Below are positions 8,342 to 40,091 of a stretch of 44,945 nucleotides of DNA, one piece after another. Under the pieces are notes generated by a model. That model saw only the letters and a list, made by a program, of their open reading frames with translations, made no database searches and was not told the DNA's origin. Positions within the stretch are counted from its first letter, which is position 1; each line of letters starts with the position of its first letter. The stretch covers positions 1 through 44,945 of the forward strand of contig CAKZJB010000221.1 in assembly GCA_936940865.1 (NCBI GenBank), given 5' to 3'. Source of the DNA: an uncultured Asticcacaulis sp. (lineage in GTDB: Bacteria; Pseudomonadota; Alphaproteobacteria; Caulobacterales; Caulobacteraceae). The position numbers and the translations under genes were made by a program.

Positions 8342-9490
8342 ATGAACCCGATCTTCGCCGACCTGCCGACCAGCATCTTCGAGATCATGTCGCTCGAGGC
8401 CAGAACGCGCGGCGCCGTAAACCTTGGCCAGGGTTTTCCGGAGGCTGACGGTTTCCCCGAGGTGCGCGAGGCCGCGGCCCGCGCCTTCATGGAGCAGTCG
8501 AACCAGTACGCGCCCATGCGGGGCCTGCCCGTCCTGCGGCAGGCGGTCGCGGCCTTCTATAGCCGCACCCAGGGACTTTCGCTCGATCCCGACACCGAGG
8601 TCATGATCACTTCGGGCGCCACCGAGGCGATCGCGGCGGCCATCCTGTCGTTCATTACGCCCGGTGACGAGGTGGTGCTGTTCGAGCCCATGTACGACGC
8701 CTATCTGCCGCTGGTGCGGCGCGCCGGTGGCGTGCCCAGGGTCGTGCCGCTGAAGCCGCCGCACTGGACTTTCGACGGCGACGGTCTCGACGCCGTATTC
8801 AGCGACCGGACGCGATTGGTTCTCCTGACCACGCCCAACAATCCGACGACCCACGCCTTGACGCACGCCGAGCTCGATCTCCTGGCGCAATATTGCGAGC
8901 GCAGCGGCGCCGTGGTCATGAGCGACGAAGTGTGGGAACAGGTCGTTTTCGACCGGCCGCACCTTTCCGTGCTCCATGTGCCGGGTCTGAAGGAAAGGGC
9001 CGTCAAGATCGGTTCGGCCGGCAAGATCTTTTCGCTCACCGGCTGGAAGGTCGGCTTCGTCTGCGGGCCCAGGCCGCTGGTCGACCAGATGGCGCGGGCG
9101 CACCAGTTCATCACCTTCGCCACGCCACCGGCGCTGCAGCACGGCGTCGCGTTCGGCCTCGGCCTGCCGCAGGCCCGCTTCGATACGGCGCTGGTGGAAT
9201 TGCGGGCGCAGCGCGATCATCTTGCCGACGGGCTGGCCCAGGGCGGCTTCCGGGTCATGGCGGCCGAAGGAACCTATTTCCTCAATATCGACCTGGGGGA
9301 CGGCGTCGCCGATCCCGTTGCCTTCGCCTTCGATCTTTTGACGAAGCATGGCGTGGCCACCATTCCGCTCAAGGCCTTTTGCGAAAGTGGGCGCAACCTG
9401 CCGATCCTGCGCCTGTGCTTCGCCAAGTCGCCGGCCACGCTCGACCGTGGCATAGCCGGTCTAGTTTCGGCCCAGGAAAGCCTGCTGTAG
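8342..9490 (+). CDS. PLP-dependent aminotransferase, methionine/kynurenine type (YbdL-like)
   Basis: A 382-residue class I/II aminotransferase. NLGQGFPEADGFPEV, NQYAPMRGLPVLRQAV and TPNNPTT are typical of the KAT/YbdL group, which prefers methionine, glutamine or aromatic amino acids. The PLP lysine is Lys228 in SAGKIFSLTGWKVGF, and the Asp binding the pyridine nitrogen is in MSDEVWE. It starts 28 bases after the DszB-like gene on the same strand, so the two are probably co-transcribed, consistent with sulfur amino acid metabolism. No strong Shine-Dalgarno precedes the start. The last 30 bases overlap the convergent cupin gene. Fold and cofactor are certain; the exact substrate is inference. 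Confidence 0.87.
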   Translation: MNPIFADLPTSIFEIMSLEARTRGAVNLGQGFPEADGFPEVREAAARAFMEQSNQYAPMRGLPVLRQAVAAFYSRTQGLSLDPDTEVMITSGATEAIAAAILSFITPGDEVVLFEPMYDAYLPLVRRAGGVPRVVPLKPPHWTFDGDGLDAVFSDRTRLVLLTTPNNPTTHALTHAELDLLAQYCERSGAVVMSDEVWEQVVFDRPHLSVLHVPGLKERAVKIGSAGKIFSLTGWKVGFVCGPRPLVDQMARAHQFITFATPPALQHGVAFGLGLPQARFDTALVELRAQRDHLADGLAQGGFRVMAAEGTYFLNIDLGDGVADPVAFAFDLLTKHGVATIPLKAFCESGRNLPILRLCFAKSPATLDRGIAGLVSAQESLL

Positions 9491-10486
9491 CGAGCGGATC
9501 AGCCCGGCGCGGATCTCCCGCGTATGGCGGCCCAGCCCGCCCTGGTGCCGCGGCGGAATATGAGCCACCGGATCGCCGTCGGTCTGGAAGATGTAGAGAT
9601 CGAACATGGTCTTCCAGTAGTGGCGCTCCGCCGGCGGCAGGTCCTTGATGGCCAGGATGGCGTCGTTGAAGCACAGGGCCGGGTTTTCGAGCGGGTTGGC
9701 CGGTGTTCCCCACCAGTAGTTGATGAGAATGTTGAAGCGATCCAGCGATTGGACATGGTGCCACCAGTAGCGCGGGATGTAGAGTGCGTCGCCGGGCTCA
9801 AGCTCCGCGACCTGGGCCTGGGCGATGGCCTCGCGCAGTTTCGGATAGGTATCGAAATCCGGTTCCTCAAGGCTGGCCAGGCTGATCGGGCGACCGGACG
9901 GCGTGTGTTCGAAAGGCCCGATATAGAGGTTTTTCACCTGTTCGGGCGGGAAAAGCGTAAAGCGGCGGCGGCCGGCCACGACGCACGCGATGTTGTAGTC
10001 GTTGTCGTTATGGGTCTGGGCGCGGGTGGCGTTGCTGATCCAGATGCGCGGGCCGACCTGCGGCGGCAGCAGGGGATTGCGGTTTTCCGCGGCGAAACGC
10101 GGCAGGTACTGCGCGGTGGGTGTCGACTGGATGTAGACATAGGGTGGATTTTCGCGATCCATGACCGACAGGAGCTGGTCGATTCCTTCGGATATGGTCT
10201 TGTTGCGGTGGTTGAAGTTGAAGTCGGCCATGTCGGGACCGTAGGTGAAACGGCCCTGGACGGTATTCCGCGATTCGAGGACTGAGGTCGGTATGCCCCG
10301 GTCCATCGCCTTTATGTAGCTGGCTACGGCCACTTCGGAGGTGCGGCCGTGCGTTACGGCCGGCCAATCGGAAACCAGGCCCCTGAGCAGGACGGGGCGC
10401 GCCGCGGGCACGATTTCACGGGCAAACCGTTCCGGAGTGATGCCGCTTTCCGCGGGAACTGAAGCGATGTCGAACGCGTCCAGCAT
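9461..10486 (-). CDS. Cupin-like (JmjC-type, cupin_8) protein
   Basis: A 341-residue cupin_8 protein, related to JmjC and factor-inhibiting-HIF hydroxylases. The metal site is readable: His159 and Asp161 in TRAQTHNDNDYN, and a distal His at 243/244 in YIPRYWWHHVQSL. VVAGRRRFTLFPPEQ and ELEPGDALYIPRYWWH are family signatures. Such proteins are predicted Fe(II)/2-oxoglutarate oxygenases and are often found next to TonB-dependent receptors and tryptophan halogenase-like genes in Caulobacter and Xanthomonas relatives, as here. AGGAA lies 12 bases before the start. It is divergent from the large receptor gene and shares its 566-bp upstream region. Its 3' end overlaps the aminotransferase by 30 bases. 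Substrate unknown. Confidence 0.87.
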   Translation of the reverse strand: MLDAFDIASVPAESGITPERFAREIVPAARPVLLRGLVSDWPAVTHGRTSEVAVASYIKAMDRGIPTSVLESRNTVQGRFTYGPDMADFNFNHRNKTISEGIDQLLSVMDRENPPYVYIQSTPTAQYLPRFAAENRNPLLPPQVGPRIWISNATRAQTHNDNDYNIACVVAGRRRFTLFPPEQVKNLYIGPFEHTPSGRPISLASLEEPDFDTYPKLREAIAQAQVAELEPGDALYIPRYWWHHVQSLDRFNILINYWWGTPANPLENPALCFNDAILAIKDLPPAERHYWKTMFDLYIFQTDGDPVAHIPPRHQGGLGRHTREIRAGLIRSLQQAFLGRN

Positions 10487-10611
10487 CGGACTGAATTATT
10501 TCCTGTTTAGCAAGGGTGCCTGTTTGCGCCAGTTGGCGGCGCAAAGCCAGAAAAATTGCACGCGACTCAGCGACGCACGACCCCGGATAAGCGAATTTCG
10601 CGTGGCAATTT

Positions 10612-10625
10612 TGACAGCGTTGTCA
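10612..10625. promoter_or_regulatory. LacI-type operator candidate
   Basis: TGACAGCGTTGTCA is a 14-bp dyad with a central CG and only one asymmetric position per arm, the general form of LacI-family operators in Proteobacteria. It is about 125 bp upstream of the cupin start on the other strand. No LacI gene lies in the window, so the regulator would be encoded elsewhere. Confidence 0.45.
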
Positions 10626-10890
10626 TAAATTTTGTGCGGGTCACAAGATTGCGATCTCCGGCACAAAAGTGTGAGCGGTAACGGAATTTTGGCATTTTGA
10701 CGCCTTAGATGACGCCAAAGTGTGACATTCGTGCCATTATCGACGGCGTTTGTGCCTTTGCTGTCATAATACGCCTAGTGTTTCGGGCGTCATTCCGGTA
10801 ACAGAGAAAGATGAAATAATTAATCGGGAAGAAGCCGTCCTAATCACTCCTAAAAAAATTGCCGGCCGCGAACTGCGCCCAGCACGGGAA

Positions 10891-10906
10891 TTGACGCTTA
10901 TGTCAA
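10891..10906. promoter_or_regulatory. TTGAC-N6-GTCAA dyad upstream of the TonB receptor
   Basis: A perfect 5-bp inverted repeat with a 6-base spacer, about 150 bp before the receptor start. It resembles the 10612 site in its TGAC/GTCA ends but lacks the central CG. It could be a second regulator half or chance symmetry. Confidence 0.3.
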
Positions 10907-11052
10907 AGCCGGGTTGCGGGGGAGGGTCGATGCATGAAAAGGGGCGTGAGCGGACAGCGTACAAGGCTTCGGCCGGTCAATAACTTCGTAGGTATCAGCA
11001 GGTCTCACCGGATGGGCAAACGCTCACCGTAAGGAGAATAGGGAGAACATAC

Positions 11053-14000
11053 ATGAAGAATTCCGAAGGCAAGGCCCGGCTTGGGCTGCAGCTCCTGAAG
11101 GGCGGCGCATCGATGGTCGCGCTTACGGCTGTGGCTATGCTGGCCGCTCCGGTCCATGCGCAGGACACCAAGGCCGGCGACGACAAGTCGGCCAGCGATA
11201 AGGGTTCCGAAGTCGTGGTCGTCGGTGTCCGCCGTTCGCTGAAGTCGGCGCAGCAGATCAAGCGCGACGCCGACACCGTCGTCGATTCGATCACTGCAAA
11301 CGACATCGGCGCTTTCCCGGACAAGTCGGTCGCCGAAGCGCTGCAGCGCGTCGCCGGCGTCACCGTGTCGCGCTTCGCCGCCACCGGTGACACCGCTCAC
11401 TTCTCGGCCGAACCGTCGGGCGTTCTGGTCCGCGGCCTGTCGCAGGTCCGTTCGGAATTCAACGGCCGCGACACCTTCTCGGCCAACTCTTCGCGCGGCC
11501 TCTCGTGGGGCGACGTCTCGCCGGAACTGATGGCGCGCGTCGACACCTACAAGAACCAGACCGCGGAACTGATCGAAGGCGGCATCTCCGGCTCGATCGA
11601 TCTGCGTACCCGCCTGCCGTTCGATTCGAAGGGCCGCGTCCTGGCCGCCTCGGCCGATTTCGTCTACAACGACCTGTCGAAGGAAACGACGCCTTCGCTG
11701 TCGGCCATCTATTCGAACCGCTGGGATACGTCGATCGGTGAGTTCGGCGTGATGCTCAACGCCGCCTATTCGAACGTCAAGACGCGTTCGGAAGGCGCTC
11801 AGTACGGCCGCGTCGGCATTTTCGATGCGTCGGTGTTCGGTACGCCGGGCAAGGTCTACATCCCGACCAACGTCACCTTCCACGACAACCTGTACAACCG
11901 TACCCGCGACGGTATTTCGGCCGCGGCGCAGTGGCAGAACCACGACCACACCATGCAGGCCACCCTGCAGTATAACCGCTCGAAGTACGACAACAGCTGG
12001 GAAGAGCACTACCTGTCGGCTGGCGCCTTCGGCATGTGGCAGGTCGTTCCGTCGAACGTCTATACCGACAAGACGATCGTCGAGCCGCTGGCTGGTTCGT
12101 CGTTCACCTTCGATCAGTCGGGCGTCTTCCAGACCGGCATCATGACCTCCAAGCTGCTCGACAGCTCCGCCGGCGGTCCGTTCGGCAACAACGACCAGAA
12201 CCAGCCTTTCTTCTCGGGTTGCTATGACTGGGCTGGCAAGACCGACGCCCAGTGCCGCCAGCCCGCCCAGGTCGGCACCGGTTCGCGTTATGCGACCACC
12301 AAGGAAATGACGGAAGATACGTCGTTCAACCTGAAGTGGGATCCGACGGAAAAGCTGAAGCTGAACTTCGACGTCCAGTACGTCAACTCGACCGTCGACA
12401 ACTACGACATGACCGCCGACACGGCGACCTATGCCGAAACCTATTTCGACTATTCGGGCAAGTATCCGAAGCTGAACTTCGTGCAGCCGACGGCCGCCCA
12501 GAACTTCGCGGCTTCGGCGGGCTTCCTGACGAACCCGAACAACTACCACTATAATGACCTGATGGACCACGCTGAAACCAGCGCTGGCCACGAACTGGCG
12601 ACTCGTCTCGACGGCCAGTATTCGTTCGGTGGCGACGGCTGGCTGCAAAGCCTGAAGGTTGGCGTCAGGTATTCGGATCGCGAACAGACTATCCGCTGGT
12701 CGACATACAACTGGGCTGGCATTACCCAGCCCTGGAACAGCAGCCCGTCGATCGATGCCTGCTATTCGGTCAACGCGACCTACAGTTCGGGCGGCGTCAA
12801 CTGCTATCCGAAATATTATGAGACCGATAAGTTCGGTTCCGACCTCCTCGGTGGCGGCCTGCTGACCCAGTCGGCGGCCGACGGCAGCAACAAGACGGCG
12901 GCGAACCAGTTCGTGTTCACGTCGATCGATGCGCTCAAGGATCGCGTGAAGTTCCAGAACACGATGAGCGCGACGGCTCTCGGCTTCCCGGGTTGGACGC
13001 CGCTGTGCCTGCGCTCCGACAACGTGGCGGGCACCTGCTATCGCCAGGTCGAAGTCAGCAAGGTTTCGGAAAAAACCGATGCCGCCTATGCCATGCTGAA
13101 ATTCGGCGGCAAGGACAAGACGATCTTCGGTACGGGCATCAGCCTCGAAGGTAACGTTGGCATCCGCTGGGTCCAGACTGAAGACGCTACGACCGGTTTC
13201 GTGGTCTATCCGAACCAGACCTGGCTTAACAGCCTGAGCTGCGTCTCCGGCGGCCCGACTCCGACCGACCGTCAGCTTGGCTGTCTGATCGGCACCTCGG
13301 GTGCGACGAACCTCAACAACGCGGTTCTGTTCTCGACCAACACCGGCAAGTCGAACGTCGCCGACGTGACGCATATCAACTGGCTGCCGAGCCTGAACCT
13401 GAAGTTCAACCTGTCGGATCAATGGGTCCTGCGTCTGGCCGCGTCGCGCGCCATGTCGCGTCCGGACATGGGTTACCTGAAGAACTACGTGTCGATCAGC
13501 AACCCGAGCATCGACCTGACCTGCTCGACCAGCCCGGAACGCTGCGTGAAGGACTCGAGCGGCAAGAACGTCGACTACAAGCCACTGTTCACCGCATCCG
13601 CCGGCAACCCGTACATCAAGCCGACGACCGCCGATCAGATCGATATGTCGGTCGAAAACTACTTCGCCGCTGTCGGTTCGTTCAGCTTCGACCTGTTCTA
13701 CAAGAAGTTCTACGACTGGATCCAGTTCGGCAACTACACCGCCAACTTCACCAATAACGGTGTGACCGAAACGGTTCGTATCAACGGCCCGATGAACAAT
13801 GACGGCGCCACGATCAAGGGCTTCGAAGTCGCCTATCAGCGCTTCTTCGACTTCCTGCCGTCGCCGTGGAATGGTCTGGGTATCCAGGCGAACTACACCC
13901 ACCTGCACAACACGGGTATCACCAACGGCAACCTGTCGTCGGTGTCGGGTGACGGCGGCACCAACACCTCGTCGGGCGGTATCGCCCAGGCGACGACGGC

Positions 14001-14379
14001 CATCAACCCGCATGCCCTGGAAGGCCTGTCCGACAACGCCTACAACGTCGTTGGCATGTACGAAAAGGGCCCGTGGGCGCTGCGTCTGGCCTACAACTGG
14101 CGTGAAAAGTACCTCGTCACGGCCGCTGACTGCTGCGTCGGTCTGCCGGTCTGGCAAGGTTCGCAAGGCTTCCTCGACGGCTCGGTCCGCTATCGGATGA
14201 ACGACAACATCGAAGTCAGCCTGCAAGCCAACAACATCACGGGTACCGATACGGTCCTCTATGAACAAGTCGAAGGCGACATCCCGGGTGCGACCCCGAA
14301 TGCTCCGCGCAAGCTGGTTCCGAACGGCGCGTTCAAGAACGACCGTCGCGTTCAGGTCGGTATCCGCCTGAAGTACTAA
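11053..14379 (+). CDS. TonB-dependent outer-membrane receptor (halogenase cluster)
   Basis: An 1108-residue receptor. The signal peptide ends at about Ala36 (APVHA-Q). A TonB-box-like segment EVVVVGVRRSLKSAQ (about residues 53-67) precedes the plug domain (ITANDIGAFPDKSVAEALQRVAGV, VLVRGLSQVRSEFNGRD). A long beta-barrel follows and ends in the aromatic outer-membrane signature VQVGIRLKY. There is no N-terminal STN domain, so it is not a sigma-signalling transducer. Length and plug sequence fit the large Caulobacter/Xanthomonas carbohydrate or oligomer receptors (TIGR01782-like). GGAGAA lies before the start. The gene leads a run of three halogenase-like genes after a hairpin. The imported substrate is unknown. 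Confidence 0.93.
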   Translation: MKNSEGKARLGLQLLKGGASMVALTAVAMLAAPVHAQDTKAGDDKSASDKGSEVVVVGVRRSLKSAQQIKRDADTVVDSITANDIGAFPDKSVAEALQRVAGVTVSRFAATGDTAHFSAEPSGVLVRGLSQVRSEFNGRDTFSANSSRGLSWGDVSPELMARVDTYKNQTAELIEGGISGSIDLRTRLPFDSKGRVLAASADFVYNDLSKETTPSLSAIYSNRWDTSIGEFGVMLNAAYSNVKTRSEGAQYGRVGIFDASVFGTPGKVYIPTNVTFHDNLYNRTRDGISAAAQWQNHDHTMQATLQYNRSKYDNSWEEHYLSAGAFGMWQVVPSNVYTDKTIVEPLAGSSFTFDQSGVFQTGIMTSKLLDSSAGGPFGNNDQNQPFFSGCYDWAGKTDAQCRQPAQVGTGSRYATTKEMTEDTSFNLKWDPTEKLKLNFDVQYVNSTVDNYDMTADTATYAETYFDYSGKYPKLNFVQPTAAQNFAASAGFLTNPNNYHYNDLMDHAETSAGHELATRLDGQYSFGGDGWLQSLKVGVRYSDREQTIRWSTYNWAGITQPWNSSPSIDACYSVNATYSSGGVNCYPKYYETDKFGSDLLGGGLLTQSAADGSNKTAANQFVFTSIDALKDRVKFQNTMSATALGFPGWTPLCLRSDNVAGTCYRQVEVSKVSEKTDAAYAMLKFGGKDKTIFGTGISLEGNVGIRWVQTEDATTGFVVYPNQTWLNSLSCVSGGPTPTDRQLGCLIGTSGATNLNNAVLFSTNTGKSNVADVTHINWLPSLNLKFNLSDQWVLRLAASRAMSRPDMGYLKNYVSISNPSIDLTCSTSPERCVKDSSGKNVDYKPLFTASAGNPYIKPTTADQIDMSVENYFAAVGSFSFDLFYKKFYDWIQFGNYTANFTNNGVTETVRINGPMNNDGATIKGFEVAYQRFFDFLPSPWNGLGIQANYTHLHNTGITNGNLSSVSGDGGTNTSSGGIAQATTAINPHALEGLSDNAYNVVGMYEKGPWALRLAYNWREKYLVTAADCCVGLPVWQGSQGFLDGSVRYRMNDNIEVSLQANNITGTDTVLYEQVEGDIPGATPNAPRKLVPNGAFKNDRRVQVGIRLKY

Positions 14380-14404
14380 GACCGAACTTTTGTTCGAAAT
14401 GTTG

Positions 14405-14447
14405 CGGGCGTGTCATGGGAAACCGTGGCGCGCCCGTTACGTTATTT
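14405..14447 (+). terminator. GAAA-capped 14-bp hairpin after the receptor gene
   Basis: CGGGCGTGTCATGG pairs with CCGTGGCGCGCCCG through a GAAA tetraloop; three positions are G-U wobbles in RNA. It lies 25 bases after the stop and is followed only by a weak T-rich stretch (ttacgttattt). It may partly terminate or stabilise the receptor mRNA, lowering expression of the halogenase genes that follow. Confidence 0.6.
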
Positions 14448-14547
14448 AAAGGGCGCGGCAAATTGGCGGGGCGCGTATATTTGACTTGTAAATCTGCTGT
14501 TCGATTGCTCATTGTGCAGACAGGATACAAGGCGAAGGCAACAGGGA

Positions 14548-16092
14548 ATGAATGGTCCACTAAGAGTCGTGATTGTCGGCGGCGGGACGTCGGGGTGGAT
14601 GGCGGGGGCGGCCCTGGCCACAGTCCTGAAGTCCGGGCAGCCGGACGCCATTGCGAATGTCCGCCTGGTCGAATCGAGCGAAATCGGTACGGTCGGCGTC
14701 GGTGAAGCGACCTTGCCGCAGGTCAAGGACTTCAATGACTATCTCGGCATCAACGAAGCCGAGTTCATGCGCAGGACCAACGCGACCTTCAAGCTCGGCA
14801 TTGAATTCGTTGACTGGGGCAAGCGCGGCAACTCCTATATCCATCCGTTCGGCGCCTTCGGCTATCCGATCGGTGGCGTGGAGTTTCAGCACTACTGGGT
14901 ACGTGGGCGCAGGCTGGGCTTGACCTCGCCGCTCGAAGCCTATTCCTACGCCGTCGTCGCGTCGCGAAGGCACCGCTTCGATTTCCCGTCCGAAGACCTG
15001 ACCTCGATCCGGTCCACCTATTCCTATGCCTATCACTTTGACGCCGGCCTCTACGCCGCGTATCTGCGCGAATTTGCCGAAGCCCGGGGTTTGAAGCGCA
15101 CCGAAGGCAAGGTCGTCGACGTCCGCCAGAACGCTGACAGTGGCGATATCGCGGCCATTGTCCTGGAATCGGGCGAAGTCATCGAAGGCGACCTCTTCAT
15201 CGATTGCTCGGGTTTTCGCGCCCTGCTGATCGGCCAGACCCTCAAGGTCGGCTGGGAAGACTGGACACCGTGGCTGCCGTGCGACCGCGCCGTCGCCGTG
15301 CCGTGCGAATCCGTGGCCGACATCACCCCCTATACCCGCGCCACGGCGCTCGAAGCCGGGTGGCAATGGCGCATCGCGCTTCAGCACCGCATCGGCAACG
15401 GCTATGTCTATTCCAGCCGTTTCATCGACGACGATGCCGCGGCGGCGCGCGTTCTGGGAAATCTCGATGGCCGGCCGCTGGCCGACCCGCGCGTACTGAA
15501 ATTCAGTGCCGGGCGCCGGACCCATTCCTGGACCAACAACTGCGTGGCCGTAGGCCTGGCCAGCGGCTTCCTCGAACCGCTCGAATCGACCAGCATCTAT
15601 CTGGCCCAGATCGCCGTCACCAACCTTCTGCAGATGCTTCCCGCCCGGGCGATCGATCCCGCCCTGCGCGACGAATTCAACCGACTTGTCGACAACGAAT
15701 ATGACCGCGTCCGCGACTTCCTGGTCCTGCATTATCATGCCAACAGCCGCGACGACTCAGAACTGTGGCGCTATGCCCGCAACATGCCGATTCCCGACAG
15801 CCTGGCTTTCAAGATCGAACAGTTTCGCCATCGCGGTCATATCACGCAGTACAAGGATGGACTGTTCTCGCCGGCCAGTTGGCTGGCCGTCTTCAATGGC
15901 CAGGATATCAATCCCGAGGGCTACGACCGCCTCGCCGACAATCTGTCGGACGACATGGTCCGCGAAAAGCTCGACGAACTGGAAAGCCGCATCCGGGTCA
16001 ATGTCGAGGCCATGCCCGATCATACCCAGTTCATCCGGGATTATTGCGCATCCCGGGAGAATCCCGCGGCAACCCGGGAGACGGTCGGATGA
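14548..16092 (+). CDS. Flavin-dependent tryptophan-halogenase family protein 1
   Basis: A 514-residue halogenase-family protein. The FAD-binding loop is VIVGGGTSGWMAG at the N-terminus and GVGEATLPQV follows. The catalytic lysine (Lys79 of PrnA) is Lys82 in ATFKLGIEFVDW, and the catalytic glutamate is Glu346 in FLEPLESTSIYL. The diagnostic W-x-W-x-I-P motif reads GWQWRIAL, so the proline is Ala. The start at 14548 is chosen over an ATG at 14512 because the FAD motif then begins at residue 7, and GGGA precedes it. It follows the receptor gene and overlaps the next halogenase-like gene by 4 bases (ATGA). Receptor-linked family members from Xanthomonas brominate indole-like compounds in vitro; the natural substrate is unknown. 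Confidence 0.9.
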   Translation: MNGPLRVVIVGGGTSGWMAGAALATVLKSGQPDAIANVRLVESSEIGTVGVGEATLPQVKDFNDYLGINEAEFMRRTNATFKLGIEFVDWGKRGNSYIHPFGAFGYPIGGVEFQHYWVRGRRLGLTSPLEAYSYAVVASRRHRFDFPSEDLTSIRSTYSYAYHFDAGLYAAYLREFAEARGLKRTEGKVVDVRQNADSGDIAAIVLESGEVIEGDLFIDCSGFRALLIGQTLKVGWEDWTPWLPCDRAVAVPCESVADITPYTRATALEAGWQWRIALQHRIGNGYVYSSRFIDDDAAAARVLGNLDGRPLADPRVLKFSAGRRTHSWTNNCVAVGLASGFLEPLESTSIYLAQIAVTNLLQMLPARAIDPALRDEFNRLVDNEYDRVRDFLVLHYHANSRDDSELWRYARNMPIPDSLAFKIEQFRHRGHITQYKDGLFSPASWLAVFNGQDINPEGYDRLADNLSDDMVREKLDELESRIRVNVEAMPDHTQFIRDYCASRENPAATRETVG

Positions 16093-17588
16093 GCGCGATC
16101 AGGAACGTCGTCATTGCCGGCCGCGATGCGGCAGCCTGGCTGACCGCCAACGCCTTGAGCCGCGCCTTGGGCGCCACGGGGCTCAACGTCACCGTGGTCG
16201 AGCTTCCCGGTCTCTTGCGGGCGCAGGATGTTTACGCCAGCCAGCCTGCGTTGGAAGCATTCCATCGCCTGCTGGGTTTCGAGGAGAGCGAAATCCTGAA
16301 GGCGTGTGGTGGAAGTTATAGCCTGGGTCAGACCTTTGCCAATTTCGCCCACACGCGCCCGGCCTTCCTCCAGCCGTACGGCAGCCATGGGGCGGCGCTA
16401 AATCGCCTTCCCTTCCATCAGTTGTGGATCAAGGCCCGGCAGCTTGGCCTGAATGTAGCCTTCGAGGACTTCAGCCTGAGCGCCGTAGCGGCGAAACAAG
16501 GGCGCTTCTTCGTCGCCAATGCCGAGATGGCGGCGTTCGGGCGTTGCGACTATGCCTACCACCTGCGCGCCGGCGCCTATGTCGGTTTCCTCAAGGCGCA
16601 TGCCTTACGGCGCGGTGTGACCCTGCACCAGACCCGGCACGTCGCGGCGCGGCTGGATGCGGACGGTTTGATCGACCATCTCGTCCTGGCCGACGGCACC
16701 GAGGTCGAGGGGGATTTGTTCATAGACGCCACGGGCGCGGAAAGCCGGCTGCTTGGTGAAGCGCTCAAGGTAGGCAGCGAAAGCTGGGCGCACTGGTTCC
16801 CGGCCAATCGCGTCCTGACGGCCGCGGGCGAGCGCCTGCGCACCCTGCCGTCGCATTCACAGGTCAAGGCCCTGGACTGGGGCACGCTGCACATGCTGCC
16901 GACCCAGGACATGACGGGATTGATGCACGTCTACGACGGTGGCGCCACAAGCGACGACGAGGCTTTTCGGGCCATGGCGGTTACCGCGGGGCTTCGCGTC
17001 AGTCCCGACGCCACGGTCAGCTCCCTGGCCGCCGGCCGCCGGCACGTCGCGTGGAGCGGCAACTGCGTCGCCATCGGCGAAGCGGCCTGCGTGTTCGATC
17101 CGATCGTCAATCCGGGCCTGCATTCCATTCAGCTGGGGCTGGCGCACCTGATCGCCCTGTTCCCGACCGAACGGGTCTGCGCGCTCGAGGCCCAGGAATA
17201 CAACCGCAACATCCAGCGGTCGTTCGAGCGTTTCCGCGACTTCCAACTGACCCATTACGCACTCAACAAGAATTTCGATCGTCCTTTCTGGGATCACCTA
17301 CGGACCGTAGGCTTGCCCGACATGCTGGCGCACAAGATCGAGGTTTTCCAGGCCCGTGGGCTGGTGGTGCTTTACGACGAAGAAACCTTCCAGTTCGACG
17401 AATGGCTGGCGGCCTTTTTCGGCCATGGCCTGATGCCGCGATCCTATGATCCGCTTGCCGACCTGGTTCCCCAGGACGAGGCCATACGCCATGTTCAGTC
17501 CATCCTGGGCTTCATCCGGCAGCATATCGAAGAGATGAGCTCACACGACGCCTATGTCGAAATGTTCGCCAGCCGCGACTTTGCGTAA
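16089..17588 (+). CDS. Degenerate halogenase-family protein 2, catalytic residues lost
   Basis: A 499-residue protein colinear with its neighbours across the whole family, including DYAYHLRAGAYVGFLKAHAL and DLFIDATGAESRLLGEALKVG. Its key sites differ. The FAD loop GGGTxGW is AGRDAAAW (residues 10-17); the GVGEAT segment is lost; Lys79 of PrnA is replaced by Ser78 in GSYSLGQTF; the PLEST glutamate is replaced in FDPIVNPG; and W-x-W-x-I-P is missing. It should not halogenate and may not bind FAD normally. The frame is intact and of normal length, with start overlapping the previous stop, so it is probably a functional non-catalytic partner rather than decay. It may regulate or escort the flanking halogenases. 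Confidence 0.85.
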   Translation: MSAIRNVVIAGRDAAAWLTANALSRALGATGLNVTVVELPGLLRAQDVYASQPALEAFHRLLGFEESEILKACGGSYSLGQTFANFAHTRPAFLQPYGSHGAALNRLPFHQLWIKARQLGLNVAFEDFSLSAVAAKQGRFFVANAEMAAFGRCDYAYHLRAGAYVGFLKAHALRRGVTLHQTRHVAARLDADGLIDHLVLADGTEVEGDLFIDATGAESRLLGEALKVGSESWAHWFPANRVLTAAGERLRTLPSHSQVKALDWGTLHMLPTQDMTGLMHVYDGGATSDDEAFRAMAVTAGLRVSPDATVSSLAAGRRHVAWSGNCVAIGEAACVFDPIVNPGLHSIQLGLAHLIALFPTERVCALEAQEYNRNIQRSFERFRDFQLTHYALNKNFDRPFWDHLRTVGLPDMLAHKIEVFQARGLVVLYDEETFQFDEWLAAFFGHGLMPRSYDPLADLVPQDEAIRHVQSILGFIRQHIEEMSSHDAYVEMFASRDFA

Positions 17589-17606
17589 TTCCAGAGGCCT
17601 TCAGAC

Positions 17607-19133
17607 ATGAATTCACAGCGCATCAGCAACATCGTCATTGTCGGTGGCGGTACGGCCGGCTGGATGACCGCCGCCATGCTGTCCAAGAGCCTCGGCACGC
17701 AGAACTACAGCATTACGCTCGTCGAATCGGAAGAAATCGGTACGGTCGGTGTTGGCGAAGCGACCATTCCGCCGATCCTGCTGTTCAACGAAGTGCTGGG
17801 ACTGGACGAGGACGAATTCATCCGCGAGACCAACGCCACTTTCAAGCTGGGTATCGAATTCGTCGACTGGCGCAAGGTCGGGCACACCTACTTCCACCCG
17901 TTCGGCCAGCTCGGCGTCGACATGGATGGAATTGGCTTCAACGCTTTCTGGTTGCGCATGGCGGCCATGGGCGGCAACGCCGATTTCGGCCGTTTCAATG
18001 CTGAAACCATGGCTGCGCGTGAGAACCTGTTCGCGCGGACACCGAAAAACGACACCTCGGCCTTGCCGCGCATCAATTACGCCTTTCAGTTCGACGCCGC
18101 GCAATATGCCGCCTACCTTCGCCGCTATAGCGAAAAACGGGGCGTGGTGCGCGTCGAGGGTAAGATTTCCAAGGTCCACCAGCATCCGGAAAGCGGCTTC
18201 ATCCAGTCGGTCGAGCTGGAAAGCGGCCGTATCATCAAGGGTGACCTCTTTTTCGACTGCTCGGGTTTCAGGGGCCTACTTATCGAACAGACGCTACAGA
18301 GCGGGTACGAAGACTGGTCACAATGGCTGCCGTGCAACCGCGCCGCCGCGGTGCCATGCGAAAAGGCGCCGGGGCCGATTACGCCCTATACGCGCTCGAC
18401 CTCGCGCGAAGCTGGCTGGCAGTGGCGTATTCCCCTGCAGCACCGGACCGGCAACGGCTATGTCTTCTGCAGCGAATTCATCAGCGAAGACGAGGCTTGC
18501 GAAAAGCTTCTGACGCGGCTCGACGCCAAACCGCTCAAGGATCCGAAGGTGCTGCGCTTCGTCACCGGCCACCGCAGGAAGGTGTGGAACAAGAACGTAG
18601 TGGCGCTGGGCCTGGCGTCGGGCTTCCTGGAGCCGCTGGAATCGACCAGCATCCACCTGGTCCAATCGTGCCTGACGCGCTTCATTTCGATGATGCCGCG
18701 CACAGAGTTCCGCCAGGCGGTGATCGACGAATACAACCGCATGGTCGTGGCCGACTATATCAACGTCAAGGACTTCCTGATCGCGCACTACAAGATCACC
18801 GAACGCGAGGACACGCCGTTCTGGAAGCATTGTAAAAATATGGATATTCCGGACAGTCTGAAGGCGCGGCTGGAAATCTTCTCCAATATCGGTTTCGCCA
18901 ACGTGACCCTGACCGAGCTGTTCAAGGAAACCAGCTGGTTCGCCGTCCTGTTCGGCCAGGGATTCTTCCCGAAGGACTACCATCCGGTCGCCGACGCTAT
19001 TTCGACCGATGAACTGAAGCTCAGGTTGTCGCGCGTTCGCACCGCCATCACCGATCGCATTGCCACCCTGCCGGTGCATGACGACTTCATCGCCAAACAC
19101 TGCGCGGCACCGGCGATGGAGAAGATGGCCTAA
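17607..19133 (+). CDS. Flavin-dependent tryptophan-halogenase family protein 3
   Basis: A 508-residue halogenase with all family marks. They are the FAD loop IVIVGGGTAGWMTA, GTVGVGEATIPPI, catalytic Lys80 in ATFKLGIEFVDW, the full W-x-W-x-I-P motif in AGWQWRIPLQHR, and catalytic Glu345 in FLEPLESTSIHL. This is the member most like experimentally active flavin-dependent halogenases; reduced FAD from a separate flavin reductase would be needed, and none is seen in the window. AGAGG lies 9 bases before the start, and only 18 bases separate it from the previous gene, so it belongs to the receptor-led operon. Its stop overlaps the stop of the convergent DUF6445-type gene by 4 bases. Confidence 0.92.
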   Translation: MNSQRISNIVIVGGGTAGWMTAAMLSKSLGTQNYSITLVESEEIGTVGVGEATIPPILLFNEVLGLDEDEFIRETNATFKLGIEFVDWRKVGHTYFHPFGQLGVDMDGIGFNAFWLRMAAMGGNADFGRFNAETMAARENLFARTPKNDTSALPRINYAFQFDAAQYAAYLRRYSEKRGVVRVEGKISKVHQHPESGFIQSVELESGRIIKGDLFFDCSGFRGLLIEQTLQSGYEDWSQWLPCNRAAAVPCEKAPGPITPYTRSTSREAGWQWRIPLQHRTGNGYVFCSEFISEDEACEKLLTRLDAKPLKDPKVLRFVTGHRRKVWNKNVVALGLASGFLEPLESTSIHLVQSCLTRFISMMPRTEFRQAVIDEYNRMVVADYINVKDFLIAHYKITEREDTPFWKHCKNMDIPDSLKARLEIFSNIGFANVTLTELFKETSWFAVLFGQGFFPKDYHPVADAISTDELKLRLSRVRTAITDRIATLPVHDDFIAKHCAAPAMEKMA

Positions 19134-19855
19134 CGGTGGATTTCGATAAAGCTGTTGGCGGTCAGCCGGCCGGTTCTCGGGTCGCCGGTCAGGGGCGCGC
19201 CGCCCAGAAGCGCCGAATGCAATGAGGTCGTGCTGTAGACCGCCAGACGGTTGAACTGTGCCGGCACGCAGTCGATCTGGATGTAGTGCTGCGTCTCGTC
19301 TTCGATGTAGTCGTGGCGCGGGGCGTTTTCCAGTTCCGCGAAGACGTGTTGGCGGTAACGGCCGACCCTGCGGCTGTCGACGGTTTCGAAGCCGGTCGGC
19401 AAATGGCGGTAAAGCGCCGTACCGCGAAACGGGGCGCCGCAGAAATAGTGCACCATGGCGAGGCGCCGAGGGTTGTCGGAATCAAAATGCGGTATGGTCT
19501 GCAGGGGTTCCAGTTGCTTGCCGGACAAGGTGCTGAGGCCGAAAAAGCCCTCGTAGCTCAGGCGTTCCTTTTCACTGATGCCGAAAATCTGCGCCAGCAG
19601 CGGCCGCAACGCCGAAACCAGGCTCCGGCCGTAGGCCGGGGGCAGCGCACCGTTGAGGCCGGGATAGTAGGAGCCCTTGGGCGGCGGCGCGAAATTGCCG
19701 TGGGCGACGGCGAACTCGACCATCTGCTCGGGATGCTGCAGAACATTGTCGATAACTAGCAATGGCATCCGCTCGTCGCCCACGGAACGGGCGTCGATGC
19801 GGGCGCGCGGGTTGAAAGTCAGGTCGGGAAAGGTCGGCGACATGGACAGATGCAT
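19130..19855 (-). CDS. DUF6445-type protein A (predicted 2OG/Fe(II) oxygenase fold)
   Basis: A protein of about 241 residues from a family that recurs beside halogenase/TonB-receptor clusters. The signature is an iron-oxygenase facial triad: His123 and Asp125 in TIPHFDSDNP, a distal His213 in TTSLHSALLGG, and Arg230 in TGRLTANSF at the place of a 2-oxoglutarate-binding Arg. The frame stays open far upstream (to 20701), but that part is antisense to the next gene, so the start is placed at 19855 (MHLSMSP); 19879 and 19843 are also possible. It is convergent with halogenase 3 and divergent from its paralogue at 19964. Function is predicted only from the motif layout. Confidence 0.8.
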   Translation of the reverse strand: MHLSMSPTFPDLTFNPRARIDARSVGDERMPLLVIDNVLQHPEQMVEFAVAHGNFAPPPKGSYYPGLNGALPPAYGRSLVSALRPLLAQIFGISEKERLSYEGFFGLSTLSGKQLEPLQTIPHFDSDNPRRLAMVHYFCGAPFRGTALYRHLPTGFETVDSRRVGRYRQHVFAELENAPRHDYIEDETQHYIQIDCVPAQFNRLAVYSTTSLHSALLGGAPLTGDPRTGRLTANSFIEIHR

Positions 19856-19963
19856 ACAGATCGCTTCGGAAAAGTCCATATTGCCGGTTGGGGCGAAAAG
19901 CCGCGCCCCTTTGCCCGGAAACGATTTTCGTGTAGCTGGTGGGTGCGGGAGTGACGAAAGACC

Positions 19964-20650
19964 ATGAAGATCCAAGTGCATGAGGTCGGGCGGGAACGCA
20001 GCCGGATCGTGATGATCGAAGACTTTATGGAAGATGCCGGCCAGGCGGTCGAACTGGCGGCGTCGCTGGCGCCGTTTCCGCGGGTCGCCAATCACTACTA
20101 TCCCGGACAACGCCGCCTGGTTGCCGGCAACGAACCGGCCTTCGCCTATTTCGACTGGATCTGCCGCGCCTTGCCGCAAATACTGAGCGAGGTCTGGGGC
20201 GTGCGCCGTTTCCAGATCACCGAGGCCGGGTTTTCGCTGGTGACGCAGCGGCCGCGCGAAATCCAGATGATCCAGCGCATTCCGCACTTCGATACGTTCG
20301 ACTTGGGCAACTTCGCCGTGCTGCATTATCTTAGCCGGCCGGAAAAGGGCGGGACTTCGTTCTACCGCCACCGTCGCACGGGATTCGAGGTCATCACCGC
20401 CGATCGCCATCCCCGATTCCGCGCGGCGCTGGACGAAGATGTCCGCGCGTACGGGCCGCCGGCCGAGGCCTACATCGGTGACTCGACGCCGGCGTTCGAG
20501 CGCATCGCCGACTATGAGGGCCGCTTCAACCGTCTGCTGGTCTACCAAGGGGCGCTGCTCCATTCCGGTCAGATTCCGGACGATTTCGACTTCAGCGCCG
20601 ACCCACACACTGGCCGGCTGACCGGCAACGTCTTCCTTAGCGCGCGTTGA
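19964..20650 (+). CDS. DUF6445-type protein B (paralogue of A)
   Basis: A 228-residue paralogue of the protein encoded at 19130-19855 on the other strand. The triad is His108/Asp110 in RIPHFDTFD and His200 in GALLHSGQ, with Arg218 in TGRLTGNVFL. Spacings (90 residues HxD to His, 18 to Arg) nearly equal those of A (90 and 17). Both share N-HYYPGQ/SYYPGLNG, GxxFYRH and FNRL-VY segments. GGGAGTGACGAAAG before the ATG includes a ribosome-binding site. It ends in a 14-base overlap with convergent halogenase 4. A hydroxylase or related oxidative role on the cluster's substrate is plausible but unproven. Confidence 0.83.
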   Translation: MKIQVHEVGRERSRIVMIEDFMEDAGQAVELAASLAPFPRVANHYYPGQRRLVAGNEPAFAYFDWICRALPQILSEVWGVRRFQITEAGFSLVTQRPREIQMIQRIPHFDTFDLGNFAVLHYLSRPEKGGTSFYRHRRTGFEVITADRHPRFRAALDEDVRAYGPPAEAYIGDSTPAFERIADYEGRFNRLLVYQGALLHSGQIPDDFDFSADPHTGRLTGNVFLSAR

Positions 20651-22232
20651 CGCTGAGAAAACGATCGGCCGGCCGCGGTGCGAAACCGTTGGCATAGACA
20701 TGGTCGATCATCTCACGGTGCGACGGCAGGTCCTTCGTCGCCAGCTCTCCGAAATTGCGCAGCTTGGCGAAAGTTGTTTCCGCCCTGGCGGTCTCGCCAT
20801 AGCGGCTTCGCGACGCTGACAGGTCGGTTTTGAAATCCATGCCGTACAGGATGTACTGGTAGTTGAAGTGCGCGAAGCTTTCGACGTCCAGCGTGAAGTC
20901 GAGGCGCACCGGCGGCCGGTAGCGCCACATGTCGAGCATGTATCGCAGTTCGTCCGGTATCGTCGCCGGATCGGCATTGTCGCGCCAGAACGACTCACTG
21001 CGGCGGGAAAGGCAGTAGTGCAGTTTCAGGAAATTGGTGATTTTCTCGAACCGCGCCGCCATCAGCCGATTGAACAGGGGGGCAGGCGCATCGACCGGTC
21101 CGTCGCCGGCCAGGAATTCCGCGAGGTAGCCGGCCGCGATTTCGATAAGCACGATGCCGGTCGATTCCAGCGGCTCGAAGAAGCTCCCGGACAGGCCGAT
21201 GGCAACGCAATTCTTGATCCACTGTTTGTCGCGGTACCCTGCGTCGAAGCGGATGCGGCGCGGGGTGACGCCGTCCGCCGCCGGACCGATATAACCCCGC
21301 AAGATGTCCTCGGCGCGGTCGTCGCTGGTGTGGTCGCTGGAATAGACGTAGCCGATACCGCGGCGACTATCGAGGCCGATGTCCCATGTCCAGCCGGCTT
21401 CGTGCGCAGTTGAGACGGTAAAACTGTTGATAGGTGCATCGGGATCGGGATAGGGGACCTGGCAGGCCACGGCCCGGTCGGTGAAAAGGTAAGGCCTGAC
21501 CGAGATAAAGGACGCCTTCAGCGCCTTGCCGATCAGCAGAGAGGCAAAGCCCGTGCAGTCGACGTAAAGGTCGGCGGTCAGTTCGCCATGTTCGGGTGAC
21601 ACCAACGATGTTATGGCGCCCGTGTCGTCCAGCTTCACTTCACCGACATTGCCGGTCAGGTGGGTTACGCCGAGTTCACGGCCACGGGCGGCCAGGACGC
21701 GGGCGAAGCGGATCGCGTCGAAATGGTAGGCGTAGGACAGGCGGGAGGAATAACCGTCCTCGAACAGCCGCTTGGGGGCGCGCTGGGCGTCGGCCACACG
21801 CTTCTGGAAGGTGACGGCGGCGGCGAAGGAATCGCGCCTATCCTCTTCCTGCATCAGCCAGTAGGGCACCAGGTCGATATTATCGAGGTGATAGGGCGAC
21901 TCGAACGGATGCAGGTAGTGGCTATGGCCATATTCAGAGGGCGTATGCAGCCAGTCGGCGAACTTGATGCCCTGCTTGAAGGTGGCTGAGGACTCGCGAA
22001 GGAAGGCGGCCTCGTCGATGCCGATGGCGCGCAAGGTGTCGCGAATGGTCGGAAAGGTGCCTTCGCCGACGCCGATGGTGCCGATTTCCGCGCTTTCGAT
22101 CAGCGTGATCCTGGGGCCAGCCTGACGGCCGGCTCCGAGTTTCGCGGCGAGAAGGCAGGCCGTCAGCCAGCCGGCGGTACCGCCGCCCACGATAAGAATA
22201 CGCCGTGGCGGCGCCGTATAGGTCCCTGTCAT
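20637..22232 (-). CDS. Flavin-dependent tryptophan-halogenase family protein 4
   Basis: A 531-residue halogenase-family protein. The FAD loop is ILIVGGGTAGWLTA, followed by GTIGVGEGTFPTI. The catalytic lysine is Lys86 in ATFKQGIKFADW and the glutamate lies in FFEPLESTGIVL; the W-x-W motif is AGWTWDIGL, with Gly in place of Pro. It is more divergent than the + strand copies 1 and 3 (ATFKQGIKF versus ATFKLGIEF). The start at 22232 puts the FAD motif at residue 12; the frame continues upstream but overlaps gabT. It lies 98 bases after gabT on the same strand and may be read from that promoter. Together with copies 1-3 it makes four halogenase-family genes within 8 kb. Confidence 0.9.
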   Translation of the reverse strand: MTGTYTAPPRRILIVGGGTAGWLTACLLAAKLGAGRQAGPRITLIESAEIGTIGVGEGTFPTIRDTLRAIGIDEAAFLRESSATFKQGIKFADWLHTPSEYGHSHYLHPFESPYHLDNIDLVPYWLMQEEDRRDSFAAAVTFQKRVADAQRAPKRLFEDGYSSRLSYAYHFDAIRFARVLAARGRELGVTHLTGNVGEVKLDDTGAITSLVSPEHGELTADLYVDCTGFASLLIGKALKASFISVRPYLFTDRAVACQVPYPDPDAPINSFTVSTAHEAGWTWDIGLDSRRGIGYVYSSDHTSDDRAEDILRGYIGPAADGVTPRRIRFDAGYRDKQWIKNCVAIGLSGSFFEPLESTGIVLIEIAAGYLAEFLAGDGPVDAPAPLFNRLMAARFEKITNFLKLHYCLSRRSESFWRDNADPATIPDELRYMLDMWRYRPPVRLDFTLDVESFAHFNYQYILYGMDFKTDLSASRSRYGETARAETTFAKLRNFGELATKDLPSHREMIDHVYANGFAPRPADRFLSVNAR

Positions 22233-22330: not shown

Positions 22331-23608
22331 TTATATTTTGAGCGCGCTTTCCAGCTTTTCCAGGCCTTCGTCCAGGATGGCGTCGGACGCGGTCAGGGGG
22401 CAGAGCAGCCGGACCGTATTGGCGTAGACGCCGCAAGTCAGCAGGATCAGGCCGCTCTCCTGGGCTTTCTGGGTAACCTGTTTGGCTGTCGCGGCGTCGG
22501 GGACGTGGCTGCCGCGCTCGGTCACGATGTCGAAGGCGACCATGGCGCCGAGGCCGCGAATGGCGTCGATCGGCACGATGTCGTTGCGCTGGCTGAGCGC
22601 TTTCAAGCGCGCCAGCAGCTTTGCGCCCTGCGCTTCGGCTTTGGCCAGCAGGCCTTCCTCGGCGATGACATCGAGCACGGCCAGCGCCGCGGCGCAGGCG
22701 ACAGGATTGCCGCCATAGGTGCCGCCGAGGCCGCCGGTGACCGGCGCGTCCATGACCTCGGCGCGCCCGACCACGCCCGACAGCGGGTAACCGCCGGCCA
22801 GCGACTTCGCCATGGTCATCAGGTCGGGGCGGGCAGCGTAATGCTCCATGGCGAACAGCTTGCCCGTGCGGCCGAAGCCGGTCTGGACCTCGTCGGCGAT
22901 CAACAGGATACCGTGGGTGTCGCAGATCTTTCGCAAGGCGGTCATAAGCTCGGGCGGGGTGATCAGGAAGCCGCCTTCGCCCTGGACGGGTTCGATGACG
23001 ATGGCGGCCACGGCGTCGGGCGCGATGTCGGCCTTGAACAGGTAGTCGAGCATCTTCAGCGAATCTTCGACCGATACGCCGTGCGCCTCGACGGGGAAGG
23101 GCAGGTGGTAGACACCGGCCTGCGGGGGCCCCAGGTCCTTCTTGTAGGGCACGACCTTGCCGGTCAGCGCCGATGTCAGGGCCGTGCGACCGTGAAAGCC
23201 GCCGGTAAAGGCGACGATGCCGTCGCGCCGCGTATGGGCGCGGGCGATCTTGACGGCGTTTTCGACGGCCTCGGCGCCTGTGGTAAAGAAGACCGACTTG
23301 GCCGGGCCGTCGATCGGCGCCAGGGCGTTGATGCGTTCGGCCAGCGCGATGTAGCTTTCGTACGGCACGACCTGGAAGGCGGTGTGCGTGAAGGCGTTCA
23401 TCTGGGCGAGCGCCGCGGCCTGGACCTTCGGGTGGCGATGGCCGGTATTGAGCACCGCGATGCCGCCGGCGAAGTCGATGAAGCGGTTGCCGTCGGCGTC
23501 CCACAACTCGGCGTTTTCTGCGCGGGCGGCGTAAAGCGTAGTGGCGTGGCCGACGCCGCGCGGGACGGCTAGGGCACGGCGGGTGGCAAGGTCGGAATTG
23601 GCGCTCAT
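22331..23608 (-). CDS. gabT: 4-aminobutyrate aminotransferase (GabT-like)
   Basis: A 425-residue class III aminotransferase. Family marks are FIDFAGGIAVLNTGHRHPKV, SVFFTTGAEAVENAVKIAR, VAFTGGFHGRT, the PLP-contacting Asp239 in LLIADEVQTGFGRTGK, and the Schiff-base lysine Lys268 in TMAKSLAGGYPLSGV. This matches GABA:2-oxoglutarate transaminase, which yields succinic semialdehyde; related ornithine or beta-alanine enzymes are less likely but not excluded. No gabD lies beside it. A TTGTGATCACAA palindrome is 35 bases upstream of the start. The gene runs toward halogenase 4 on the same strand. Confidence 0.9.
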   Translation of the reverse strand: MSANSDLATRRALAVPRGVGHATTLYAARAENAELWDADGNRFIDFAGGIAVLNTGHRHPKVQAAALAQMNAFTHTAFQVVPYESYIALAERINALAPIDGPAKSVFFTTGAEAVENAVKIARAHTRRDGIVAFTGGFHGRTALTSALTGKVVPYKKDLGPPQAGVYHLPFPVEAHGVSVEDSLKMLDYLFKADIAPDAVAAIVIEPVQGEGGFLITPPELMTALRKICDTHGILLIADEVQTGFGRTGKLFAMEHYAARPDLMTMAKSLAGGYPLSGVVGRAEVMDAPVTGGLGGTYGGNPVACAAALAVLDVIAEEGLLAKAEAQGAKLLARLKALSQRNDIVPIDAIRGLGAMVAFDIVTERGSHVPDAATAKQVTQKAQESGLILLTCGVYANTVRLLCPLTASDAILDEGLEKLESALKI

Positions 23609-33909: not shown

Positions 33910-33959
33910 AACCGCCTCGACGGCCGGCGGAAAACGACCGTCCAGGCATCGTAGTGAAT

Positions 33960-35315: not shown

Positions 35316-35321
35316 TACAAT
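35309..35321. promoter_or_regulatory. AT-rich dyad, copy 1 (end of GH53 gene)
   Basis: Read on the minus strand it is ATTGTATTATAAT, differing by one base (the centre) from the site before the GH2 gene at 40066. It covers the GH53 stop codon and lies about 140 bases before the ECF sigma gene. It is also enclosed by GCCTAT/ATAGGC arms and may double as a hairpin. Confidence 0.4.
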
Positions 35322-35461
35322 AGGCTGGCCAAAGCGCCAAAACGTGTTATGACTCTGTCACAAAGACTGGTTTTCGACTGAAAAACCGGCACGTGACAGG
35401 GAGGAATACGAAAAATGGCGGAAAGAACGCTGCCAGGCATCATAATAATGGAAGCAAGGTC

Positions 35462-37010: not shown

Positions 37011-37110
37011 AATTGTCGTACAAGGGGCGGCGGAAAAATATTCGCCCACGCATCTGACATCGTAAGGGCCGGGAACTGCCCTTGGCACTTATAATAACAG
37101 GGAAATCCAC

Positions 37111-39996: not shown

Positions 39997-40026
39997 CCTC
40001 CGTAACCTCCCTACGGAGCAACTCAT

Positions 40027-40063: not shown

Positions 40064-40065
40064 AT

Positions 40066-40078: not shown

Positions 40079-40091
40079 TATAACCGGAAAC

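Follow-up and report, generated by a model that had tools for sequence, protein, structure and literature searches.

Both regulon reconstructions and studies of Xanthomonas have recorded tryptophan halogenase genes lying beside TonB-dependent receptors. The closest characterized enzymes are BrvH of Brevundimonas (6FRL) and Xcc4156 of Xanthomonas (6Y1W), indole-brominating flavin halogenases for which the consulted parts of two reports (PMC5945002, PMC7336383) describe open active sites and suggest peptide substrates. In the same parts, BrvH elutes as a dimer, keeps GxGxxG, Lys83 and WxWxIP, and loses activity in the K83A mutant. The consulted text of PMC11727664 names a halogenase homologue called inactive, StaK, which is a single gene of an actinomycete glycopeptide cluster. 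TonB-receptor carbohydrate utilization (CUT) loci are the subject of PMC1790865, in whose main text the word "halogenase" has no occurrence. The locus compared with these systems is an eight-gene island at positions 9461-22232 of a 44,945-nucleotide stretch of DNA from an uncultured Asticcacaulis sp. (the window: GenBank assembly GCA_936940865.1, contig CAKZJB010000221.1, positions 1 to 44,945, forward strand). It comprises a cupin_8 gene, a TIGR01782 receptor, three halogenase genes on the same strand (hal1 to hal3), two DUF6445 genes, and a minus-strand PF04820 halogenase gene (hal4). The protein encoded by hal2 is very probably a pseudoenzyme, and its gene is conserved directly downstream of a catalytically intact halogenase gene at TonB receptor loci.

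In hal2, GRDAAAW replaces GGGTAGW, Ser78 replaces the catalytic Lys (K79 of PrnA), Val340 replaces the catalytic Glu (E346), and GTLHMLP replaces WxWxIP. Judged by mechanism, every mark of a flavin-dependent halogenase (GxGxxG, Lys and Glu, and WxWxIP) is missing, and none of the three motifs kept by BrvH is present. The protein nevertheless matches PF04820 over its whole length, and it is predicted to keep the halogenase fold despite the lost residues for catalysis and for binding flavin adenine dinucleotide (FAD). Among hal2 and 33 relatives the catalytic Lys is found in 0/34 and the Glu in 0/34, and the FAD loop reads G[RSC]D in 34/34 where live genes read GGG (alignment A1 contains 33 of these 34 proteins, with L052 omitted). 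Genes that keep both catalytic residues are called live here, and those that have lost one or both are called degenerate or dead. The other three halogenase genes carry GxGxxG, Lys and Glu and are predicted from sequence to be halogenases. In hal1 these features are Lys82, Glu346 and GGGTSGW, accompanied by GWQWRI, and the best PDB match is BrvH (6frl). Aligned members of the hal1 group keep both residues in 43 of 43 cases and those of the hal4 group in 6 of 6; the hal3 group keeps Lys in 41/41 and Glu in 40/41, the sole exception being a cut-off frame in L024. An earlier note on this DNA had listed the receptor, the four halogenase genes, the cupin_8 gene and the two DUF6445 genes, all of which were confirmed by Pfam and NCBIfam. 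Its statement that Lys and Glu are present in three halogenases held on alignment (hal1, hal3 and hal4, with both lost in hal2), as did its statement that the island lacks a flavin reductase, SapC and a polymer hydrolase, for which none of the eight genes gave a Pfam or NCBIfam match. The note had also treated one halogenase gene as not intact; the residues are indeed lost, but hal2 turned out to be a conserved member of the core described below. In being probably inactive hal2 resembles StaK, from which it differs in belonging to a widely conserved clade that is paired with live genes at TonB receptor loci.

Relatives of hal2 were found at E 1e-100 or better in 30 of the 199 genomes covered by the family search and, among the matches listed at that threshold, in 21 of 25 genomes of the same genus, the source genome included. 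A hal1-type gene lies directly upstream of the hal2 relative in 33/33 fetched loci (L029-L061), and a TIGR01782-type receptor was detected with a custom profile in the fetched stretch of 31/33. The exact eight-gene set was found in 0/33; four loci (L032, L033, L035 and L037) hold the island set complete except for hal4, and L031 has hal4 and no DUF6445 genes. A single-protein query of the contig collection gave no match, but a query with the hal2 alignment did, and the best 80 loci (L062-L141) were taken as a wider sample. Because its loci were chosen for their similarity to hal2, the sample says nothing about the frequency of such genes among all halogenases. A total of 230 PF04820 frames of more than 300 amino acids were aligned from these loci, of which 149 were live, 76 degenerate (one per locus) and 5 unscored for gaps; alignment A2 contains the window protein and 45 relatives picked from the 80 loci. 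By their G-x-D loop, in which the Asp holds by definition, 56 of the degenerate genes were assigned to a GRD type, leaving 20 others. Both catalytic residues are lost in 69/76. Live halogenases share 101 invariant columns; the GRD-type genes (56) have lost 34 of these, including two glycines of the Rossmann motif, the V-G-E in the FAD loop, K82 and E346-S-T, and have kept 37; the second Trp of WxWxIP is kept in 0/56.

The pairing of live and dead genes is conserved. A live halogenase gene lies directly upstream on the same strand for 73 of the 76 degenerate genes; the three misses are two loci at contig ends (L077 and L083) and L141, where the live gene falls just beyond the distance rule. A TonB receptor is present within 8 kb of 72/76, and the same two contig-end loci account for two of the four misses. 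The stop of the live gene overlaps the start of the dead gene in 61 of 74 measurable pairs, 42 of them by exactly 4 nt, and the distance is at most 30 nt in 73/74; gene starts were assigned by rule, and single gap lengths may be some codons off. The hal1 and hal2 genes of the window share the 4 nt ATGA at 16089-16092. Control junctions overlap in 26/49 cases from dead to live (20 by exactly 4 nt), 5/12 from live to live and 0/58 from receptor to live. The comparison of gene neighborhoods proposed in the earlier note was thus run, and a receptor with a live and a dead halogenase recurs across Alpha- and Gammaproteobacteria. The degenerate genes belong to Caulobacteraceae (34), Sphingomonadaceae (17), and Cellvibrionaceae, Steroidobacteraceae, Parvularculaceae, Maricaulaceae, Azospirillaceae, Microbulbiferaceae and others, and the core of receptor, hal1-type and hal2-type genes recurs in other genera. 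The accessory genes are less constant, with cupin_8 in 48/76 and DUF6445 in 21/76 of the degenerate-gene loci.

A decaying pseudogene was ruled out as an explanation of hal2, because the ratio of nonsynonymous to synonymous changes (pN/pS) was 0.08-0.52 in 18/18 pairs of related loci and because an in-frame stop is absent from 32 of the 33 matches outside the source genome (41-60% identity). The remaining match (G129:C42) carries a single TGA within the region of the match, and its open part alone was used. One of the pN/pS pairs (L129/L133) has lost Lys alone. The two closest pairs have nonsynonymous divergence (dN) of 0.017 and 0.018 against synonymous divergence (dS) of 0.26 and 0.20. In 15 of 17 comparable pairs the dead gene had a higher ratio than its upstream live neighbor, so purifying selection on the dead genes is real but somewhat looser. 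A 134-row tree was built from 55/76 degenerate rows and sampled live partners. In it, the 27 upstream live genes that were sampled group with window hal1 and a single downstream row in one clade with a Shimodaira-Hasegawa-like approximate likelihood ratio (SH-aLRT) support of 97. This clade splits into sub-clades of 15 rows (support 100) and 12 rows (99), each matching different groups of dead genes; L113, which keeps Lys, sits beside live genes. In a 58-row tree, built from a random sample minus the six longest-branched rows, one branch (SH-aLRT 98) splits 30 dead rows from the 28 others, and a single ancient origin of the dead genes appears likely.

The source genome (5.07 Mb in 245 contigs) contains many receptor-halogenase units, of which the island is one. 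PF04820 has 34 matches there, two of them short and weak, and the other 32 form 23 clusters. Sixteen of the 23 lie within 1.5 kb of a TIGR01782-type receptor (rough chance 0.065 each, binomial p 1.6e-14), which, together with the recurrence of the core in other genera, shows that the clustering is not due to chance. Conversely, 16 of 40 receptor intervals, obtained by merging TIGR01782 matches by hand, have a halogenase cluster within 1.5 kb. Among the other seven clusters, C225 and C21 have a receptor within 6 kb and C22 has none near; C110, C157, C237 and C7 start no more than 0.5 kb from the end of a contig. Both catalytic residues are kept in 28 of 30 aligned halogenase frames of this genome, a count that excludes two contig-end fragments, and the remaining two frames are hal2 and a cut-off frame. 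A frame at L024:786-3359 (C125 of the same genome) matches profile positions 1-235 alone, has a very long branch, and is probably a broken copy. Halogenase clusters contain, or are no more than 4 kb away from, three of four cupin_8 copies and three of four DUF6445 copies; no halogenase cluster was found in the fetched stretches around the remaining copies (C222 and C136). When genes at these loci were clustered, no other gene was common to more than three loci.

Both oxygenase-like families of the island retain the residues expected of iron enzymes. The nearest solved relatives of the cupin_8 protein by sequence are FIH and JMJD5, together with JMJD7 and C2orf60/TYW5, with the best stretch at residues 157-265; in the cupins of these operons HxD is present in 52/53 and the distal His in 51/53. 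DUF6445 gave no PDB match by sequence better than E 0.37, and the best matches of its predicted fold are OGFOD1, PHD2 and the bacterial P4H. Its H108, D110 and H200 are invariant in 27 rows and in 25/25 relatives, which were trimmed in alignment A3 to their BLAST-matched part. The DUF6445 proteins are putative prolyl-hydroxylase-like oxygenases of the Fe(II)/2-oxoglutarate (2OG) type, and the two island families share conserved iron ligands with the solved enzymes named above. Those enzymes mostly act on proteins. We know of no activity or substrate for the cupin_8 and DUF6445 families of the island, whose likeness to protein hydroxylases is one of resemblance only. DUF6445 was also considered as an obligate part of the system and rejected, a PF04820 gene being near in just 8/20 DUF6445 loci (10-18 kb fetched); a receptor and cupin_8 are present in one more. 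These loci were picked by hand among the high scorers of the taxonomic order, and include two from the family of the window and two from one genome. In two loci of the wider sample, L123 (an alphaproteobacterial metagenome-assembled genome, MAG) and L133 (a Brevundimonas MAG), cupin_8 adjoins DUF6445 beside a receptor and halogenases, and the second halogenase of L133 has Arg in place of Lys.

Neighboring genes of the relatives point toward sugars. Recurrent neighbor families were clustered from open reading frames of at least 90 amino acids and counted by BLAST with one representative each; the representatives were confirmed by Pfam, although for three of ten scanned cluster representatives Pfam gave no match, and these may be antisense frames. 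Glycoside hydrolase (GH) family GH97 is present in 21/56 and LacI in 18/56 of the GRD-type loci; the 20 non-GRD loci have GH10 in 7, GH43 in 7 and GH3 in 9. One or more of GH97, GH10, GH43 and GH3 occur in 25/56 GRD-type and 10/20 other loci. In Sphingomonas mali (L099) a LacI-type gene, a permease resembling the major facilitator superfamily (MFS), a receptor, a live and a dead halogenase, cupin_8 and a GH97-like gene stand in one row; the permease was judged by eye, and the Pfam matches come from the homologues in L106 and L097. Such relatives share LacI, permease, receptor and GH97 with CUT loci, and L099 appears to hold the components of such a locus, namely a degradative enzyme, a transporter and a regulator. 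The window island differs in this respect, since its eight genes contain no such LacI, permease or glycoside hydrolase gene by Pfam, and hence no degradative enzyme, inner-membrane transporter or regulator of a CUT locus. The link of halogenase pairs to sugars is suggestive only, because the counts cover halogenase loci alone and no other TonB loci.

The constant gene order, the overlap and the lost catalysis make a hal1:hal2 complex the most economical reading, and such a complex is reasonably likely. In the proposed mechanism, the receptor, hal1 and hal2 would form the core of a receptor-linked modification cassette; hal2 would be made in step with hal1 by translational coupling, and the two proteins would associate, with hal2 holding or positioning a large substrate and hal1 supplying hypohalous acid. 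The remaining genes (hal3, hal4, cupin_8 and DUF6445) would encode accessory modifying enzymes. The substrate would be a side chain, Trp or similar, of a protein of the import system, with the receptor as first candidate, rather than a sugar-type ligand. A halogenase requires an electron-rich aromatic ring, which sugars do not have, and a TonB receptor delivers to the periplasm only. The enzymes are thus kept with a sugar-type receptor yet unsuited to sugars, which makes a protein of the system the simplest target, and a protein substrate is given an even chance. The dimeric elution of BrvH, the open active sites and suggested peptide substrates of BrvH and Xcc4156, and the hydroxylase-like oxygenases are in favor. 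The combined proposal, a live/dead halogenase complex that together with the oxygenases modifies a protein of the import system, falls a little short of even. The earlier note had read the island as a scavenging-and-tailoring system, which is partly supported. Its idea of two chemistries, flavin halogenase and Fe/2OG-type oxygenase, is backed by intact motifs and by the predicted DUF6445 fold, and gene co-occurrence holds; halogenation of the imported compound itself is not supported, the eight genes having no inner-membrane uptake gene, the neighbors of relatives pointing to sugars and the nearest solved relatives of the oxygenases acting mostly on proteins.

The strongest competitor, which corresponds to the reading of the earlier note, is that the receptor imports a small aromatic ligand, or an aromatic one linked to a glycan (for example a phenolic or feruloylated oligosaccharide), and that the hal1:hal2 pair acts on it. 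The presence of a TonB receptor at nearly every locus suits such a ligand, as do the xylan-type GH10 and GH43 neighbors in 7/20 loci of the second dead group, which could bring aromatic-substituted glycans. Free indole is halogenated by BrvH and indoles by Xcc4156-type enzymes in the consulted parts of the sources, where the activity of BrvH on indole is however low. Against this reading, the FAD-type motif stands right at the start of the halogenases, which therefore look cytoplasmic, whereas the receptor delivers to the periplasm only; the eight genes lack an inner-membrane importer, and the oxygenases resemble protein hydroxylases; the small-ligand reading is rather unlikely.

Two further explanations concern hal2 itself, and each is improbable. 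If hal2 were not dead, it could have another activity, either flavin-independent, with an unusually bound flavin, or as a peptide monooxygenase like QhpG, LodB and GoxB. Its weak NCBIfam matches to these three lie far under cut-off, and similar weak matches are given to QhpG by hal1, hal3 and hal4 and to LodB by hal1 and hal3. It has lost WxWxIP, a motif said in the consulted literature excerpts to prevent monooxygenase function, and GGGVAGW is kept in some second-group genes (5/76); the second Rossmann glycine, on the other hand, is Asp in hal2 and 33 relatives, and V-G-E is gone in the GRD type. Alternatively, hal2 could serve as a regulator or chaperone of hal1, acting in stability or in containment of halide or hypohalous acid rather than as a substrate holder. 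The overlapping genes and near-constant pairing would suit any stoichiometric partner, but most halogenases of the source genome need no dead partner, as the residue count above indicates.

Several observations weigh against the combined proposal. In 23/34 hal2-type proteins Asp stands in place of the Glu, which is a mild change; just one of Lys and Glu is lost in 7/76 degenerate genes; and some of the 20/76 non-GRD genes keep GGG, including the GGGVAGW genes, and may still bind FAD. The dead rows do not form one group in the 134-row tree, where long branches are included. Two live/dead pairs without a receptor within 8 kb (L072 and L073) are seemingly true exceptions, so the pair may also serve elsewhere. 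Xcc4156 is dimeric in the crystal and maybe a monomer in solution, as far as the consulted parts go (PMC5945002, PMC7336383). The fold matches of DUF6445 also include the small-molecule enzymes SnoN, SnoK and HygX, and 11/20 DUF6445 loci show no halogenase, receptor or cupin_8 with custom profiles, which detect TIGR01782-like receptors only. Finally, the receptor residue Trp1016 described next was the second of about 896 column/residue tests and is not significant after correction.

The receptor was considered as a substrate by comparing aromatic columns among 69 receptors from dead-halogenase loci (69/76 loci, the remainder having no receptor frame of at least 800 amino acids within 8 kb) and, from the source genome, 19 receptors linked to halogenases and 18 unlinked ones. 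Trp1016 (YNWR) is present in 99% of the 69 receptors, and in 14/19 linked (window included) against 3/18 unlinked receptors (p 8e-4, uncorrected for kinship). As a candidate modification site it is a lead only.

No description of a conserved pseudo-halogenase at TonB loci was found in the open-licence PubMed Central (PMC) literature among the matches listed, and no paper on DUF6445 was found in the open-licence PMC literature. The PF04820 label "tryptophan halogenase" covers a clade that probably cannot halogenate, and DUF6445 gains a likely fold and chemistry. If BrvH/Xcc4156-type enzymes need a partner, their natural substrate may have escaped screens that offered free indoles to one enzyme at a time, and the conserved overlapping pseudo-halogenase gene makes the partner idea directly testable. 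It is conceivable, though unlikely, that the TonB-linked halogenases of Proteobacteria represent a large unrecognized protein-modification machinery that modifies its own receptors or co-exported proteins before export. If so, heteromers of live and pseudo-halogenases and FIH-like and prolyl-hydroxylase-like oxygenases would halogenate and hydroxylate outer-membrane receptors, and these modifications would tune nutrient capture, receptor turnover or phage recognition.

Coordinates of the island features are given in Table 1. The two DUF6445 genes point away from each other rather than standing in tandem.

Table 1. Features of the receptor-halogenase island (window positions)
Feature	Position	Strand	Support or remark
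cupin_8/FIH-like putative Fe(II)/2OG oxygenase	9461-10486	-	PF13621 E 3e-68; divergent from operon
Intergenic region, cupin_8/receptor	10487-11052	.	Sequence alone; both promoters expected here
TonB-dependent receptor TIGR01782 (TonB-Xanth-Caul)	11053-14379	+	NCBIfam 582 bits, cut-off 310; Pfam Plug and barrel
hal1, live flavin halogenase (BrvH/Xcc4156 type), upstream partner of hal2	14548-16092	+	PF04820 E 6.5e-188
hal2, probable pseudo-halogenase	16089-17588	+	GRDAAAW for GxGxxG; Ser78 for Lys; Val340 for Glu
hal3, live flavin halogenase, common third gene	17607-19133	+	PF04820 E 2.4e-187; best PDB match 9luq
DUF6445a, putative prolyl-hydroxylase-like Fe/2OG oxygenase	19130-19879	-	PF20043 E 3.8e-65; alignment-invariant H, D, H, R
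DUF6445b, putative prolyl-hydroxylase-like Fe/2OG oxygenase	19964-20650	+	
hal4, live halogenase, separate clade	20637-22232	-	PF04820 E 1.2e-124; WxWDIG for WxWxIP; Lys and Glu kept

The hal4-type group is live, and GW[TI]WDIG replaces WxWxIP in all six of its rows (the window, L009, L010, L020 and L027 of the same genome, and the relative L031). The five rows from the source genome form a long-stemmed clade in the 134-row tree (SH-aLRT 100). In L009, L010 and the window the hal4-type gene stands beside ordinary live halogenases, possibly as another type of pair. The island is followed by a class III aminotransferase gene at 22331-23608, a similar gene being present in 7/56 GRD-type loci, and, up to 29083, by a set of MFS, HlyD and OEP efflux genes accompanied by a TetR gene at 28448-29083. 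A second, halogenase-free TonB locus at 33720-42542 contains GH53, an extracytoplasmic function (ECF) sigma factor, FecR, an STN-type receptor and GH2, and looks like a galactan utilization locus.

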